Source: Verrucosispora sp. WMMD573
GTDB lineage: Bacteria > Actinomycetota > Actinomycetes > Mycobacteriales > Micromonosporaceae
Direction: 5' to 3'
Assembly: GCF_027497175.1 (NCBI RefSeq)
Contig: NZ_CP114901.1
Coordinates: 6,138,001 to 6,202,000 of the forward strand
Length of the DNA: 64,000 nt
Part shown: piece after piece, positions 40,937 to 43,761 of the stretch
Numbering within the stretch: position 1 is the stretch's first letter
Layout: each line of letters opens with the position of its first letter
Program-made: the position numbers and the translations under genes
The notes under the pieces: model-generated
Told to the model about the DNA's origin: nothing
The model's input: only the letters and a program-made list of their open reading frames with translations
Databases searched by the model: none

Positions 40937-40999
40937 GTTGATCAAGAAGTTTGCGTCGACTTCGCCGGCGCGGATCCCGACGCAAACTTCTTGGTCAAC
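40937..40999. repeat. 63-bp TTGATCAAGA palindrome (copy 5)
   Basis: Arms of 22 bp (40937-40958 and 40978-40999), one mismatch, between convergent lipB and aspS. Core altered to GTTGATCAAGAAG. A C-rich left flank and GGGGGCGGGGG right flank are present. Confidence 0.92.
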
Positions 41000-41031: not shown

Positions 41032-42318
41032 TTAGGGGGCTAGGCGGTGGAGGTCGCGGGGGAAGGGGGTCACCTCGCGGATGTTGGAAGCGCCGGTGAG
41101 GCGGGCGACCAGGCGTTCCAGGCCGATGGCGAAGCCGCCGTGCGGTGGCATGCCGTGACGGAACGCGTCGACGTAGCCGGCGTACGGTTCCACCGGCTCC
41201 CCCCGGTCGGCCAGCGCGGCCAGATAGTCGACGTGCCGGTGCAGTCGCTGGCCACCGGTGACCAGTTCGAGCCCCCGGAACAGCAGGTCGAAGCCGTTGG
41301 AGTAGCCCGGCCGCGCCGGGTCCGGATGGGTGTAGAACGGCCGCTTCGCCATCGGGTATCCGGTGACGAAGAGGAATTCCGACCCGTGCTCGCGCCGGGC
41401 CCACTCCCCCAGCGCCCGTTCGTGCGCCGGGGCGAGGTCCGGTTCGTCGGCAGGGGCGTTGGCGATCCGCAGCGCGTCGGTGAAGTGCACCGCCGGGATC
41501 TGCGCGGGCACCGGTGGTGGCGTGACACCGAGGGTGGCCAACGCGACGGCGGCCCGGTCACCGACCGAGTCGAGCATCCCGGCGAGGGTGTCCCGCAGTA
41601 CCGTCATCATGTCCCGATGGTCGGTGACGAAGCCCAGCTCGACATCGAGCGAGGTGTACTGCGCCAGGTGCCGCACGGTGTCGTGTGGCTCGGCCCGGAA
41701 CACCGGCCCGACCTCGTAGACGCGCTCGAAAACGCCGACCATGAGCTGCTTGTAGAACTGTGGCGACTGGGCCAGGTACGCGGGCCGACCGAACCAGTCC
41801 AGGGCGAAGACGTTCGCCCCGCTCTCCGTGGCGGACGCGACCACCTTCGGTGTGTGGATCTCCACGAATCGGCGGGCGTCCAGCGCGGCCCGGAAACCGG
41901 CCACCGCCGCCGCCGAGATCCGCAACGCGGCCGATCGGGTCGGGTGACGCAGGGCGACCGGGGCGTGGTCCAGCTGGGTCGGCAGGGTGGCGGCCAGCTC
42001 GGGTCGGTAGAGGTCGAACGGGGGCGGCACAGCGGGCGGGCCGAGCGGTCGTACCGTCGGGTTGGTCAGCTCCAACCCACCGGGCGCCGCCGCGTTGGTG
42101 ACCACGGTGGCCACCACCTCGACGACGGTCTCCTCGGGTAGCGCCGCCACCTCGGCACGCACCGCGGGGTCGGTGACGACCACCTGGGCGAGGCCGGCGG
42201 CGTCCCGGACGATCAGGAAGGCCACCGACTTGAGCAGGCGGCGGCGGTGGACCCAGCCGGCGATCCGGACGGTACGCCCGGTGTACGGCGTGAGCTGGTC
42301 GGACAGGATGCGTTGCAT
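41032..42318 (-). CDS. aspS: Archaeal/eukaryotic-type aspartyl-tRNA synthetase
   Basis: Class IIb synthetase of 428 residues, far shorter than the ~590-residue bacterial AspRS and without its GAD insertion. An OB-fold anticodon domain comes first (GRTVRIAGWVHRRRLLKS). The catalytic domain has FRAEPHDTVRHLAQYTS (motif 2), GGFAIGLERLVARL (motif 3) and the C-terminal PFPRDLHRLAP typical of archaeal AspRS. It may be non-discriminating (charging tRNA-Asn too, for the amidotransferase route) or a second, inducible enzyme. The ATG at 42318 has GGAGG five bases upstream, which can be masked by the T-box leader. It sits between lipB and lipA, so it is an insertion into conserved order. Confidence 0.93.
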   Translation of the reverse strand: MQRILSDQLTPYTGRTVRIAGWVHRRRLLKSVAFLIVRDAAGLAQVVVTDPAVRAEVAALPEETVVEVVATVVTNAAAPGGLELTNPTVRPLGPPAVPPPFDLYRPELAATLPTQLDHAPVALRHPTRSAALRISAAAVAGFRAALDARRFVEIHTPKVVASATESGANVFALDWFGRPAYLAQSPQFYKQLMVGVFERVYEVGPVFRAEPHDTVRHLAQYTSLDVELGFVTDHRDMMTVLRDTLAGMLDSVGDRAAVALATLGVTPPPVPAQIPAVHFTDALRIANAPADEPDLAPAHERALGEWARREHGSEFLFVTGYPMAKRPFYTHPDPARPGYSNGFDLLFRGLELVTGGQRLHRHVDYLAALADRGEPVEPYAGYVDAFRHGMPPHGGFAIGLERLVARLTGASNIREVTPFPRDLHRLAP

Positions 42319-42631
42319 GGCTACCTCCTCGATCAGTCGCAACGCGATCCCCGGGAGGTGTGGGCGAGCGGGAACCTCGCGGTGCCACCACACCTTCGCT
42401 CCCGTCGAGACGGGAGCCTCGTTCGTCGCCTTTTGACCGGGGCCAGCCGGGCGGGGTCTACTGGGCGCGGATGCCGGCTCGCCCCCGCTGCACCAGGGCC
42501 GTCACCGCACGCTGTTCTTCCCGCAGCTCGGGAGGGTCTTCGCGGCCCCGGCGCCAGACCGCCTCGCAGCAACCGGCGGCTCTCTTCAACTGGCGGATCG
42601 GTGCCCTACTCGGCTCCGTCGTCGCTTCGTG
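42319..42631 (-). ncRNA. T-box riboswitch leader (Asp, translational type) of aspS
   Basis: Read on the minus strand, all T-box parts are present. Stem I base GGAG/CTCC (42617-42614 with 42534-42531) and the AGTA side of the specifier loop (42610-42607). The specifier GAC (42538-42536) sits after GAA. Stem CGCCAG/CTGGCG, an AGAGA bulge (42585-42581), and GCCGCC/GGCGGT close on the loop GGTTGCTGCGA (42574-42564). Stem III is GCTCCCGTC/GACGGGAGC (42417-42398). The T-box TGGCACCGCG lies at 42387-42378. TGGC matches the GCCA end of tRNA-Asp/Asn (G73). AGGTGTGG/CCACACCT makes the antisequestrator, while ACCTCC (42359-42354) can instead pair with the ribosome site GGAGGT (42328-42323). Confidence 0.93.
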
Positions 42632-42637
42632 CCGGGC

Positions 42638-42643
42638 ACGCTA
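42638..42643 (-). promoter_or_regulatory. -10 box (TAGCGT) for the T-box leader
   Basis: TAGCGT on the minus strand would start transcription near 42631, giving a leader of about 310 bases. Confidence 0.45.
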
Positions 42644-42756
42644 ACATCCGATCGCGTCGTCCTGTTACGTGTTTCTTGCGGCTTCGGTGTCCGGCGTCAC
42701 AGGATTTCCGGGGTGACGGCCGTCGCCCGCTGTTCATCGACCGCCGCCGTCCGGCG

Positions 42757-42762
42757 TAGGCT
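42757..42762 (+). promoter_or_regulatory. Leaderless-type -10 box (TAGGCT)
   Basis: TAGGCT is followed by 6 bases and the GTG at 42769. Confidence 0.6.
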
Positions 42763-42768
42763 CGTTTT

Positions 42769-43761
42769 GTGACGATCGAGCACTCCGCGCCGACGACCGG
42801 CCAGGCCGCGAGTACCGCGACGCCCGCCCCCGAGGGGCGGCGACTGCTGCGGATCGAGGCACGCAACGCCGAGACGCCGATCGAGCGCAAACCTCCGTGG
42901 ATCAAGGTCAAGGCCAAGATGGGCCCCGAGTACACCCAGCTGCGTGGGCTGGTCGCCCGCGAAGGGCTGCACACCGTGTGCCAGGAGGCCGGCTGCCCCA
43001 ACATCTACGAATGTTGGGAGGACCGCGAGGCCACCTTCCTCATCGGCGGTGACCAGTGCACCCGCCGCTGCGACTTCTGCCAGATCGACACCGGCAAGCC
43101 GGCCGAGTTCGACGCCGACGAGCCACGCCGGGTTGCCGAGTCGGTGGTGTCGATGGGGCTGCGGTACGCCACCATCACCGGCGTGGCCCGCGACGACCTG
43201 CCCGACGGCGGCGCCTGGCTGTACGCCGAGACGGTGCGGCAGATCCACGCCCTGCAGCCCGGTTGCGGTGTCGAGCTGCTGATCCCCGACTTCAACGCGG
43301 TACCCGAGCAACTCGCCGAGGTCTTCGGTGCCAGGCCGGAGGTGCTCGCGCACAACGTGGAGACGGTCCCCCGGATCTTCAAGCGGATCCGGCCGGCCTT
43401 CCGCTACGAGCGGTCCCTGGACGTCATCTCGCAGGCACGCGCCGACGGTCTGGTCACCAAGAGCAACCTGATCCTGGGCATGGGCGAGGAGCGCTCGGAG
43501 ATCTCCCAGGCCCTACGCGACCTGCACGCCGCCGGCTGTGAGCTGATCACCATCACCCAGTACCTGCGTCCCTCTCCCCGGCACCACCCGGTGGAACGCT
43601 GGGTCAAGCCGGAGGAGTTCGTCGAGCTGCGTGAGGAGGCCGAGGAGATCGGCTTCGCCGGCGTGATGAGCGGCCCCCTGGTCCGCTCCTCCTACCGCGC
43701 CGGCCGCCTCTACCAGCAGGCCCTCGCCGCCCGCGAACCCGCAACCCTGGCCACCCACTAA
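42769..43761 (+). CDS. lipA: Lipoyl synthase
   Basis: Radical SAM enzyme inserting two sulfurs into protein-bound octanoyl chains. 330 residues. The auxiliary cluster is ligated by [12 protein letters not shown], the SAM cluster by CTRRCDFC, and the closing Ser by the C-terminal RSSYRAG. The family's [12 protein letters not shown] start region is present. It acts after lipB and serves the E2, GcvH and other lipoyl proteins. Its end is followed at once by a CCCCCG repeat and a palindrome. Confidence 0.97.

Follow-up and report, generated by a model that had tools for sequence, protein, structure and literature searches.

A probable tRNA-Asp-specific translational T-box ahead of an accessory archaeal-type aspartyl-tRNA synthetase gene in Micromonosporaceae

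Translational T-boxes at ileS were reportedly described from Actinobacteria by Sherwood in 2015, and Saad is said to have reported in 2012 and 2013 a T-box on the aspS2-gatCAB operon of Clostridium acetobutylicum, which acts on transcription and reads tRNA-Asn and tRNA-Glu. According to the relevant passages of the literature, the T-boxes of Actinobacteria had been detected at ileS alone, where they mask the ribosome site (Seliverstov, 2005; PMC1262725), translational T-boxes mostly have a shorter stem I, with a few long ones (PMC7583486), and Actinobacteria were scanned for TBDB with a class II model (PMC7778990); excerpts of PMC9437257 belong to the same background. In the Firmicutes, as the pertinent section of PMC2494555 has it, multi-copy synthetases carry a T-box on just one copy in 58% of cases. 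Extra, second AspRSs like the one described here are placed by the sections of PMC4206432 at hand chiefly in Actinomycetales and mostly in genomes without AsnRS, and the T-box is mentioned there merely through the titles of two references, one on C. acetobutylicum and one on T-box binding. No aspS T-box from Actinobacteria was named in the titles or abstracts among the open-literature matches listed; an undiscussed entry may exist in the TBDB tables. The leader described below is a known kind of switch and apparently an undescribed member of it.

With the actinobacterial ileS T-boxes, this leader shares the T-box bulge, an antisequestrator set against a masked ribosome site, the absence of a terminator, and stem II. 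The ileS T-box of the same genome carries AUC, TGGT and an ultrashort stem I (judged by eye), whereas the aspS2 leader carries GAC, TGGC and a long stem I, and precedes the gene of an accessory AspRS. The C. acetobutylicum leader is likewise a T-box on an additional AspRS, but unlike that of the Firmicute the present one is translational by prediction, is directed to tRNA-Asp, and has no gatCAB adjacent to it. A further likeness exists within Micromonosporaceae, where a second-type ileS (L153, L155) is also a second synthetase gene under a long-stem-I T-box; it differs from aspS2 in its amino acid, isoleucine, and in that its product is nearer to MupA/MupB than the ileS product of the window genome, far below their cut-offs, and of putative function. 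The leaders of L153-L157 combine a long stem I with AUC, whereas the ileS leaders of L161 and of the window genome are ultrashort.

The leader and its gene lie on the minus strand of the window, that is, the whole 64,000-nucleotide stretch of DNA analysed, with aspS2 located between lipB and lipA. Their features were assigned as follows.

41032..42318, minus strand: aspS2, archaeal-type AspRS of 428 aa, start ATG at 42318 (NF003483, 521.6 bits against a cut-off of 353)
42343..42633, minus strand: T-box leader as modelled by covariance model R1 (RF00230 match 42631-42357; alignment and pair counts)
42525..42626, minus strand: stem I (helices 1-5 of the pair count; K-turn base recognised from the sequence by eye)
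42610-42607, minus strand: AGTA of stem I (sequence position)
42585-42581, minus strand: AGAGA of stem I (sequence position)
42574-42564, minus strand: distal loop of stem I, GGTTGCTGCGA (sequence position)
42538-42536, minus strand: specifier GAC, preceded by GAA (sequence position)
42451..42524, minus strand: stem II, with S-turn-like GGGAAGAAC / AGTAGA (sequence; helix 6 of the pair count)
42420..42451, minus strand: stem IIA/B region, a possible pseudoknot (read by eye; sequence suggestive)
42398..42417, minus strand: stem III (helix 7, 82.8% of cells paired)
42356..42395, minus strand: antisequestrator, comprising A1 helix, bulge and A2 helix (helices 8 and 9, 99.6% and 100% of cells paired)
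42395-42388 with 42363-42356, minus strand: A1 helix, AGGTGTGG with CCACACCT (sequence and pair count)
42387-42381, minus strand: bulge TGGCACC, between the A1 and A2 helices
42380-42376 and 42368-42364, minus strand: A2 helix, GCGAG/CTCGC (sequence and pair count)
42323..42359, minus strand: predicted sequestrator, ACCTCC 42359-42354 with ribosome site GGAGGT 42328-42323 (fold of a shorter piece; lineage-matched complementarity)
42638..42643, minus strand: -10-like box TAGCGT (possible -35, GTAACA 42668-42663)

The initial annotation had called the gene an archaeal-type AspRS, and the profile searches agreed. In addition to its score above the NF003483 cut-off, the compact product (AspRS2) matched only PF00152 and PF01336 in Pfam, with no match to a GAD domain, and its closest solved relative was T. 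thermophilus AspRS2 (1n9w, E 4.9e-111); against TIGR00458 it reached 331.4 bits, below the cut-off of 368.4. The second, bacterial AspRS that the same reading led one to expect was found elsewhere in the genome (C1:3625382-3627121, 713.7 bits), and the whole-genome search with RF00230 gave no T-box match at this housekeeping aspS. Downstream, where aspS2 and lipB converge, an inverted repeat (GTTGATCAAGAAGTTTGCGTCG / CGACGCAAACTTCTTGGTCAAC, window 40937-40999) lies between the two genes and is perhaps a two-way terminator.

At the Rfam gathering score, no match was obtained in the window. Under permissive settings, RF00230 aligned end to end with 42631-42357 at 34.2 bits (E 6e-6 in 581 bases; E 1.6e-5 when the whole 6.5 Mb genome was searched), which lies below the gathering score (93 bits), a value that serves curation and describes no anatomical trait. 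The only other RF00230 matches in the genome were two copies of the ileS leader, at 28.1 bits also below 93, and since a leader of known kind scores so low, the low score at aspS2 reflects the model at least partly. The Infernal search proposed at the outset accordingly returned a T-box match, and every element that had been named in claiming a complete minus-strand T-box was located at its position. Stem II, which was absent from the original list of elements, is present as well, and the span first given, 42319-42643, additionally takes in the -10-like box (42643-42638) and the ribosome site. All 105 leaders examined for it have a TANNNT box 5-30 nt ahead of them, against an average of 8.1 of 105 in letter shuffles; a strict sigma-70 promoter scan detected no promoter at the leader. 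The two ileS copies, one close to each end of the contig (G000, C1:4065-7222 and 6491369-6494526; L007, L008), point the same way, probably because the assembly left a circular overlap of some 8.5 kb unclosed.

To follow these elements among protein relatives, the best 80 of 361 encoding stretches were fetched from their genomes. TGG[CT]ACC was in position in 78 of these 80 leaders (73 with C, 5 with T, none with A or G), an intact TGGNACC being missing in the other two, and GAAGAC was present in 74. The six leaders without GAAGAC were L014, where the leader is gone, L045, L047 and L074, where stem I is lost, and L083 and L085, which have different stem I forms. Both motifs were found together in all 31 further Micromonosporaceae loci (L093 and the 30 best-scoring, L123-L152), part of which may be the same species. 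Conservation of GAC and TGG[CT] in homologous aspS2 leaders, on which the first reading had staked itself, therefore held in most of them. Seven Actinoplanes-type leaders (L076, L080-L082, L084, L086, L129) pass from stem I straight to stem III, without stem II and IIA/B. A palindromic element (AAGGAAGGGCCCCCT...TTAACGC...) stands in or near the aspS2 leader at at least 10 of the 80 loci (L010, L014, L015, L018, L028, L045, L047, L066, L072 and L074; nine by pattern, L047 by eye), and in L014, L045, L047 and L074 stem I is missing beside it, so that these loci resemble natural knock-outs.

For the alignment, 105 of 112 candidates carried all landmarks (7 skipped); 22 leaders exceeding 265 nt were removed, though the window leader (291 nt) was retained, and the rest were thinned at 90% identity, which left 31. 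Across these 31 leaders, 51 pairs in nine helices gave 1484 cells, of which 94.8% were paired, against 37.6-50.1% when the partners were slid, although the structure counted was derived from the window and its relatives and hence leans towards them. Two-sided changes occurred at 26 pairs (102 cells), and 0 of 500 shuffles reached any of the five measures. Compensatory changes included GGTGTGG/CCACACC to GGTGCGG/CCGCACC in A1 and GCGAG/CTCGC to GGGAG/CTCCC in A2; the covariation support for stem II was small because its pairs scarcely vary in this alignment. Model R1, built from the same 31 relatives, scored the window leader at 198.7 bits, and as the window is itself one of those 31, the independent evidence consists of the Rfam match, the conservation and the pair counts.

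The assignment of GAC as specifier was upheld in the Rfam alignment, in the register of the Ile leaders and in the truncated leader L167. GAC is the triplet adjoining the CUCC-GAGC helix, ileS leaders have AUC at an equal distance, and L167, with its truncated stem I, retains GAC in the same position (GGAG-CA-GAC-A-CTCC). A threonine specifier (GAA-G-ACC by 5' spacing) was discarded in view of the Rfam alignment and the 3' anchoring on the CUCC-GAGC helix, and also of the Ile leaders and the truncated-stem-I Asp leader, all of which give the GAC register. The idea that two tRNAs are read in turn, by GAA and then by GAC, was rejected too, GAA also standing before AUC in second-ileS leaders and being missing in L167. 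As for the bulge, TGGC had been matched to a tRNA-Asp with G73, and the tRNA-Asp of the window genome (one found, by exact pattern) does end in ...CAGGACC-G, with G73. The tRNA-Ile of the genome (one found, by exact pattern) has A73, and the ileS leaders examined have TGGT. Bacterial tRNA-Asn likewise has G73, as given in the part of PMC9976931 that concerns it; TGGC therefore suits both tRNA-Asp and tRNA-Asn, and the specifier decides.

No terminator-like site was found in 42200-42800, and the ACCTCC in the 3' strand of A1 (42359-42354) could base-pair with GGAGGT (42328-42323), the ribosome site before the aspS2 start. The ACCT at 42359-42356, earlier read as shared between two helices, was confirmed in this position as part of both the A1 3' strand and the anti-ribosome-site ACCTCC. 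The leader thus shows the trait of translational (class II) T-boxes, namely an absent terminator and a predicted ribosome-site helix that would exclude A1 through this overlap. The pairing with the ribosome site was compared in 127 leaders (L013, L014, L074 and L167 skipped). For 26 distinct A1 tails, own-lineage pairing gave -11.55 kcal/mol against -10.36 for permuted pairing (sd 0.33), 1 of 1000 permutations being as good, and for 76 distinct pairs 0 of 1000 permutations were as good, results that are not clean probabilities since the leaders share ancestry. When 30 leaders were folded (L013, in which no ribosome site was located, being left out), forcing A1 came at no cost in 15, the window leader included, and at 0.1-6.3 kcal/mol in the other 15; as the A1-formed fold is the minimum in the former, the masked OFF state is not their computed default. 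A slightly shorter piece of the window folds with the ribosome site masked. The predicted control at the level of translation is therefore supported, not proved: the missing terminator and the lineage-matched pairing speak for it, whereas the energies leave the default fold unsettled.

We consider it very likely that the aspS2 leader is a translational, tRNA-Asp-specific T-box on an inducible accessory AspRS, on the basis of its RNA anatomy, the covariation, the match to the genome's own tRNA-Asp and the co-occurrence of the two enzymes. By analogy with the T-box family, the leader would bind tRNA, sense its charging and switch accordingly. Stem I would read the anticodon of tRNA-Asp via GAC, and probably also the tRNA elbow, and when tRNA-Asp is uncharged, the TGGC bulge would pair with its free GCCA end, by which the antisequestrator would be stabilised and the ribosome site freed. 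Charged tRNA-Asp would be unable to pair with the bulge, and ACCTCC would then mask GGAGGT. Since AspRS2 coexists with a housekeeping bacterial AspRS, the device would turn on a spare enzyme when the charging of tRNA-Asp drops. Such a switch would extend the translational T-boxes of Actinobacteria from ileS to aspartate, and because stem I varies from long to minimal among its relatives, all on a single gene, these leaders are useful for studying the purpose of stem I.

A bacterial AspRS was present in 200 of 200 Micromonosporaceae genomes sampled and an archaeal-type AspRS over the cut-off in 159 of 200, probably a lower bound because the best match of genome G316, apparently below the cut-off (E 6.7e-84), is the gene with leader L159. 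The search with R1 covered 101 of the 200 genomes, with 20 candidates scored in each and stricter filters. Of the 72 archaeal-type genes with listed coordinates, 71 had an R1 match within 500 nt upstream, with scores down to 32.1 bits; for the sole gene without a match, in G342, a contig end is 428 nt away. In L160 (G308, 41.3 bits), a long stem I is not visible.

Wider sampling returned an archaeal-type gene over the cut-off in 9 of 296 genomes of the phylum sample, two of them Micromonospora, and in 40 of 394 of the class sample, four of them Micromonospora. The comparison outside Micromonospora was made with the 36 class-sample genomes and with 4 phylum-sample genomes not among them. Both AspRSs, with an R1 match just upstream of the archaeal-type gene, were found in 18 genomes outside the family (28.8-186.9 bits; L163-L170, L172-L180, L183; the match of L172 is partial, covering only model positions 199-240). 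Another 18, comprising 17 genomes of family f8 and G204, had the archaeal type with neither a bacterial AspRS over the cut-off nor an upstream R1 match. Four exceptions had both AspRSs with no leader found (G215, G034, G057, G498), in one of which, G498 (L199), aspS2 is seemingly interrupted by recombinase-like DNA (by eye). Among the actinomycetes sampled, the T-box mostly accompanies aspS2 where it is a spare and is unseen where it is the sole AspRS, a pattern that fits an inducible spare. The original suggestion of a back-up enzyme gains from the bacterial AspRS in all 200 family genomes sampled and from both groups of 18, the four exceptions running against it, and it is from this distribution that we infer a spare role for AspRS2. 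The rule of a switch if spare and none if sole enzyme offers a testable principle for duplicated synthetases. A full stem I occurs outside the family in Nonomuraea loci, family f79 and G607, and in family f7, G594, G771 and a Rhodococcus plasmid it is reduced to a minimal hairpin whose loop carries UGAC (by eye).

Two side observations concern these genomes. In G784, G804, G838, G708 and 13 more f8 genomes, the archaeal-type AspRS has apparently replaced the bacterial one, whereas G594, also of f8, has both types. The DNA abutting the middle of aspS2 in L199 resembles a site-specific recombinase gene, judged by eye, as though inserted there.

What the switch responds to in nature can be read in several ways. 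Inhibition of AspRS may be the natural trigger, and aspS2 could then confer self-induced resistance: natural products blocking the bacterial-type AspRS would leave tRNA-Asp uncharged, the T-box would fire, and an insensitive AspRS2 would take over, much as second IleRSs take over under mupirocin. A resistance role is plausible but unproven, and the scheme in full strikes us as possible though somewhat doubtful. The archaeal-type enzyme is accessory and patchy in the family, and the second-type ileS of Micromonosporaceae is also under a long-stem-I T-box. Over the same 474 residues, this second ileS scored 446.7 bits against MupB and 440.1 against MupA, nearer than the ileS of the window genome (368.1 and 337.1); the scores of the second ileS are far below the MupA/MupB cut-offs of 1900 bits, and the case for a MupA-like second ileS is weakened in that the window genome's ileS matches MupA/MupB too, about 80-100 bits lower. 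Archaeal-type AspRSs are also borne on plasmids (18 records), with R1 matches on the copies of S. cattleyicolor (170.3 bits) and Rhodococcus (70.7 bits), but no clear biosynthetic cluster was seen alongside the S. cattleyicolor copy, and the window aspS2, flanked by lipB and lipA, is not in a biosynthetic cluster either. The archaeal-type AspRS of G215 does stand beside AMP-binding/carrier, glycosyltransferase and aminotransferase genes, and that of a Macrococcus plasmid beside genes for a methyltransferase, an MFS pump and an S51 peptidase; these are, however, distant homologues (34% and 32% identical, respectively), and the G215 gene is without a leader. To our knowledge, none of these species has yielded an AspRS inhibitor. 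An extension of the same idea is that T-box and aspS2 form a mobile cassette that moves with its own switch between actinomycetes, also on plasmids, and by inducing itself gives immunity to natural inhibitors of bacterial AspRS, and that its abundance in Micromonosporaceae points to undescribed AspRS-targeting antibiotics there; this is speculative and in our judgement unlikely. The switch rule is also a pointer to possible AspRS inhibitors.

The remaining readings dispense with an inhibitor. General homeostasis under aspartate starvation, with no special threat and a second AspRS that merely adds charging capacity, is a tentative candidate that we lean against: it parallels the Firmicutes in which one of two synthetases is under a T-box (PMC2494555, section cited above), but a housekeeping aspS with no T-box match would be odd if only supply mattered. 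AspRS2 could instead be non-discriminating and supply Asp-tRNA-Asn to transamidation, with the T-box tuning it to aspartate supply. No AsnRS above the cut-off was found in the window genome, NCBIfam names NF003483 aspartate--tRNA(Asn) ligase, the closest solved relative (1n9w) is listed as non-discriminating, and the association of extra AspRSs with AsnRS-less genomes in the sections of PMC4206432 points the same way; against this, the specifier in the leaders examined is GAC (Asp) rather than AAC, and family genomes without the archaeal type would need the bacterial AspRS for tRNA-Asn if they are AsnRS-less like the window genome, and we hold this role to be unlikely. Decay of the T-box, with regulation lost in the window species, is suggested by relatives without stem I (L045, L047, L074) or without the entire leader (L014), yet it is very improbable given that the named elements of the window copy are all intact and compensatory changes occur among its relatives.

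Apart from these readings, the gene group on the Macrococcus plasmid (L193, 6711-13219) may have a role of its own. Closely spaced on one strand, it comprises the methyltransferase, the MFS pump, a 455-aa protein without a Pfam match, the archaeal-type AspRS and the S51 peptidase, and it could represent a small toxin cluster together with its immunity.
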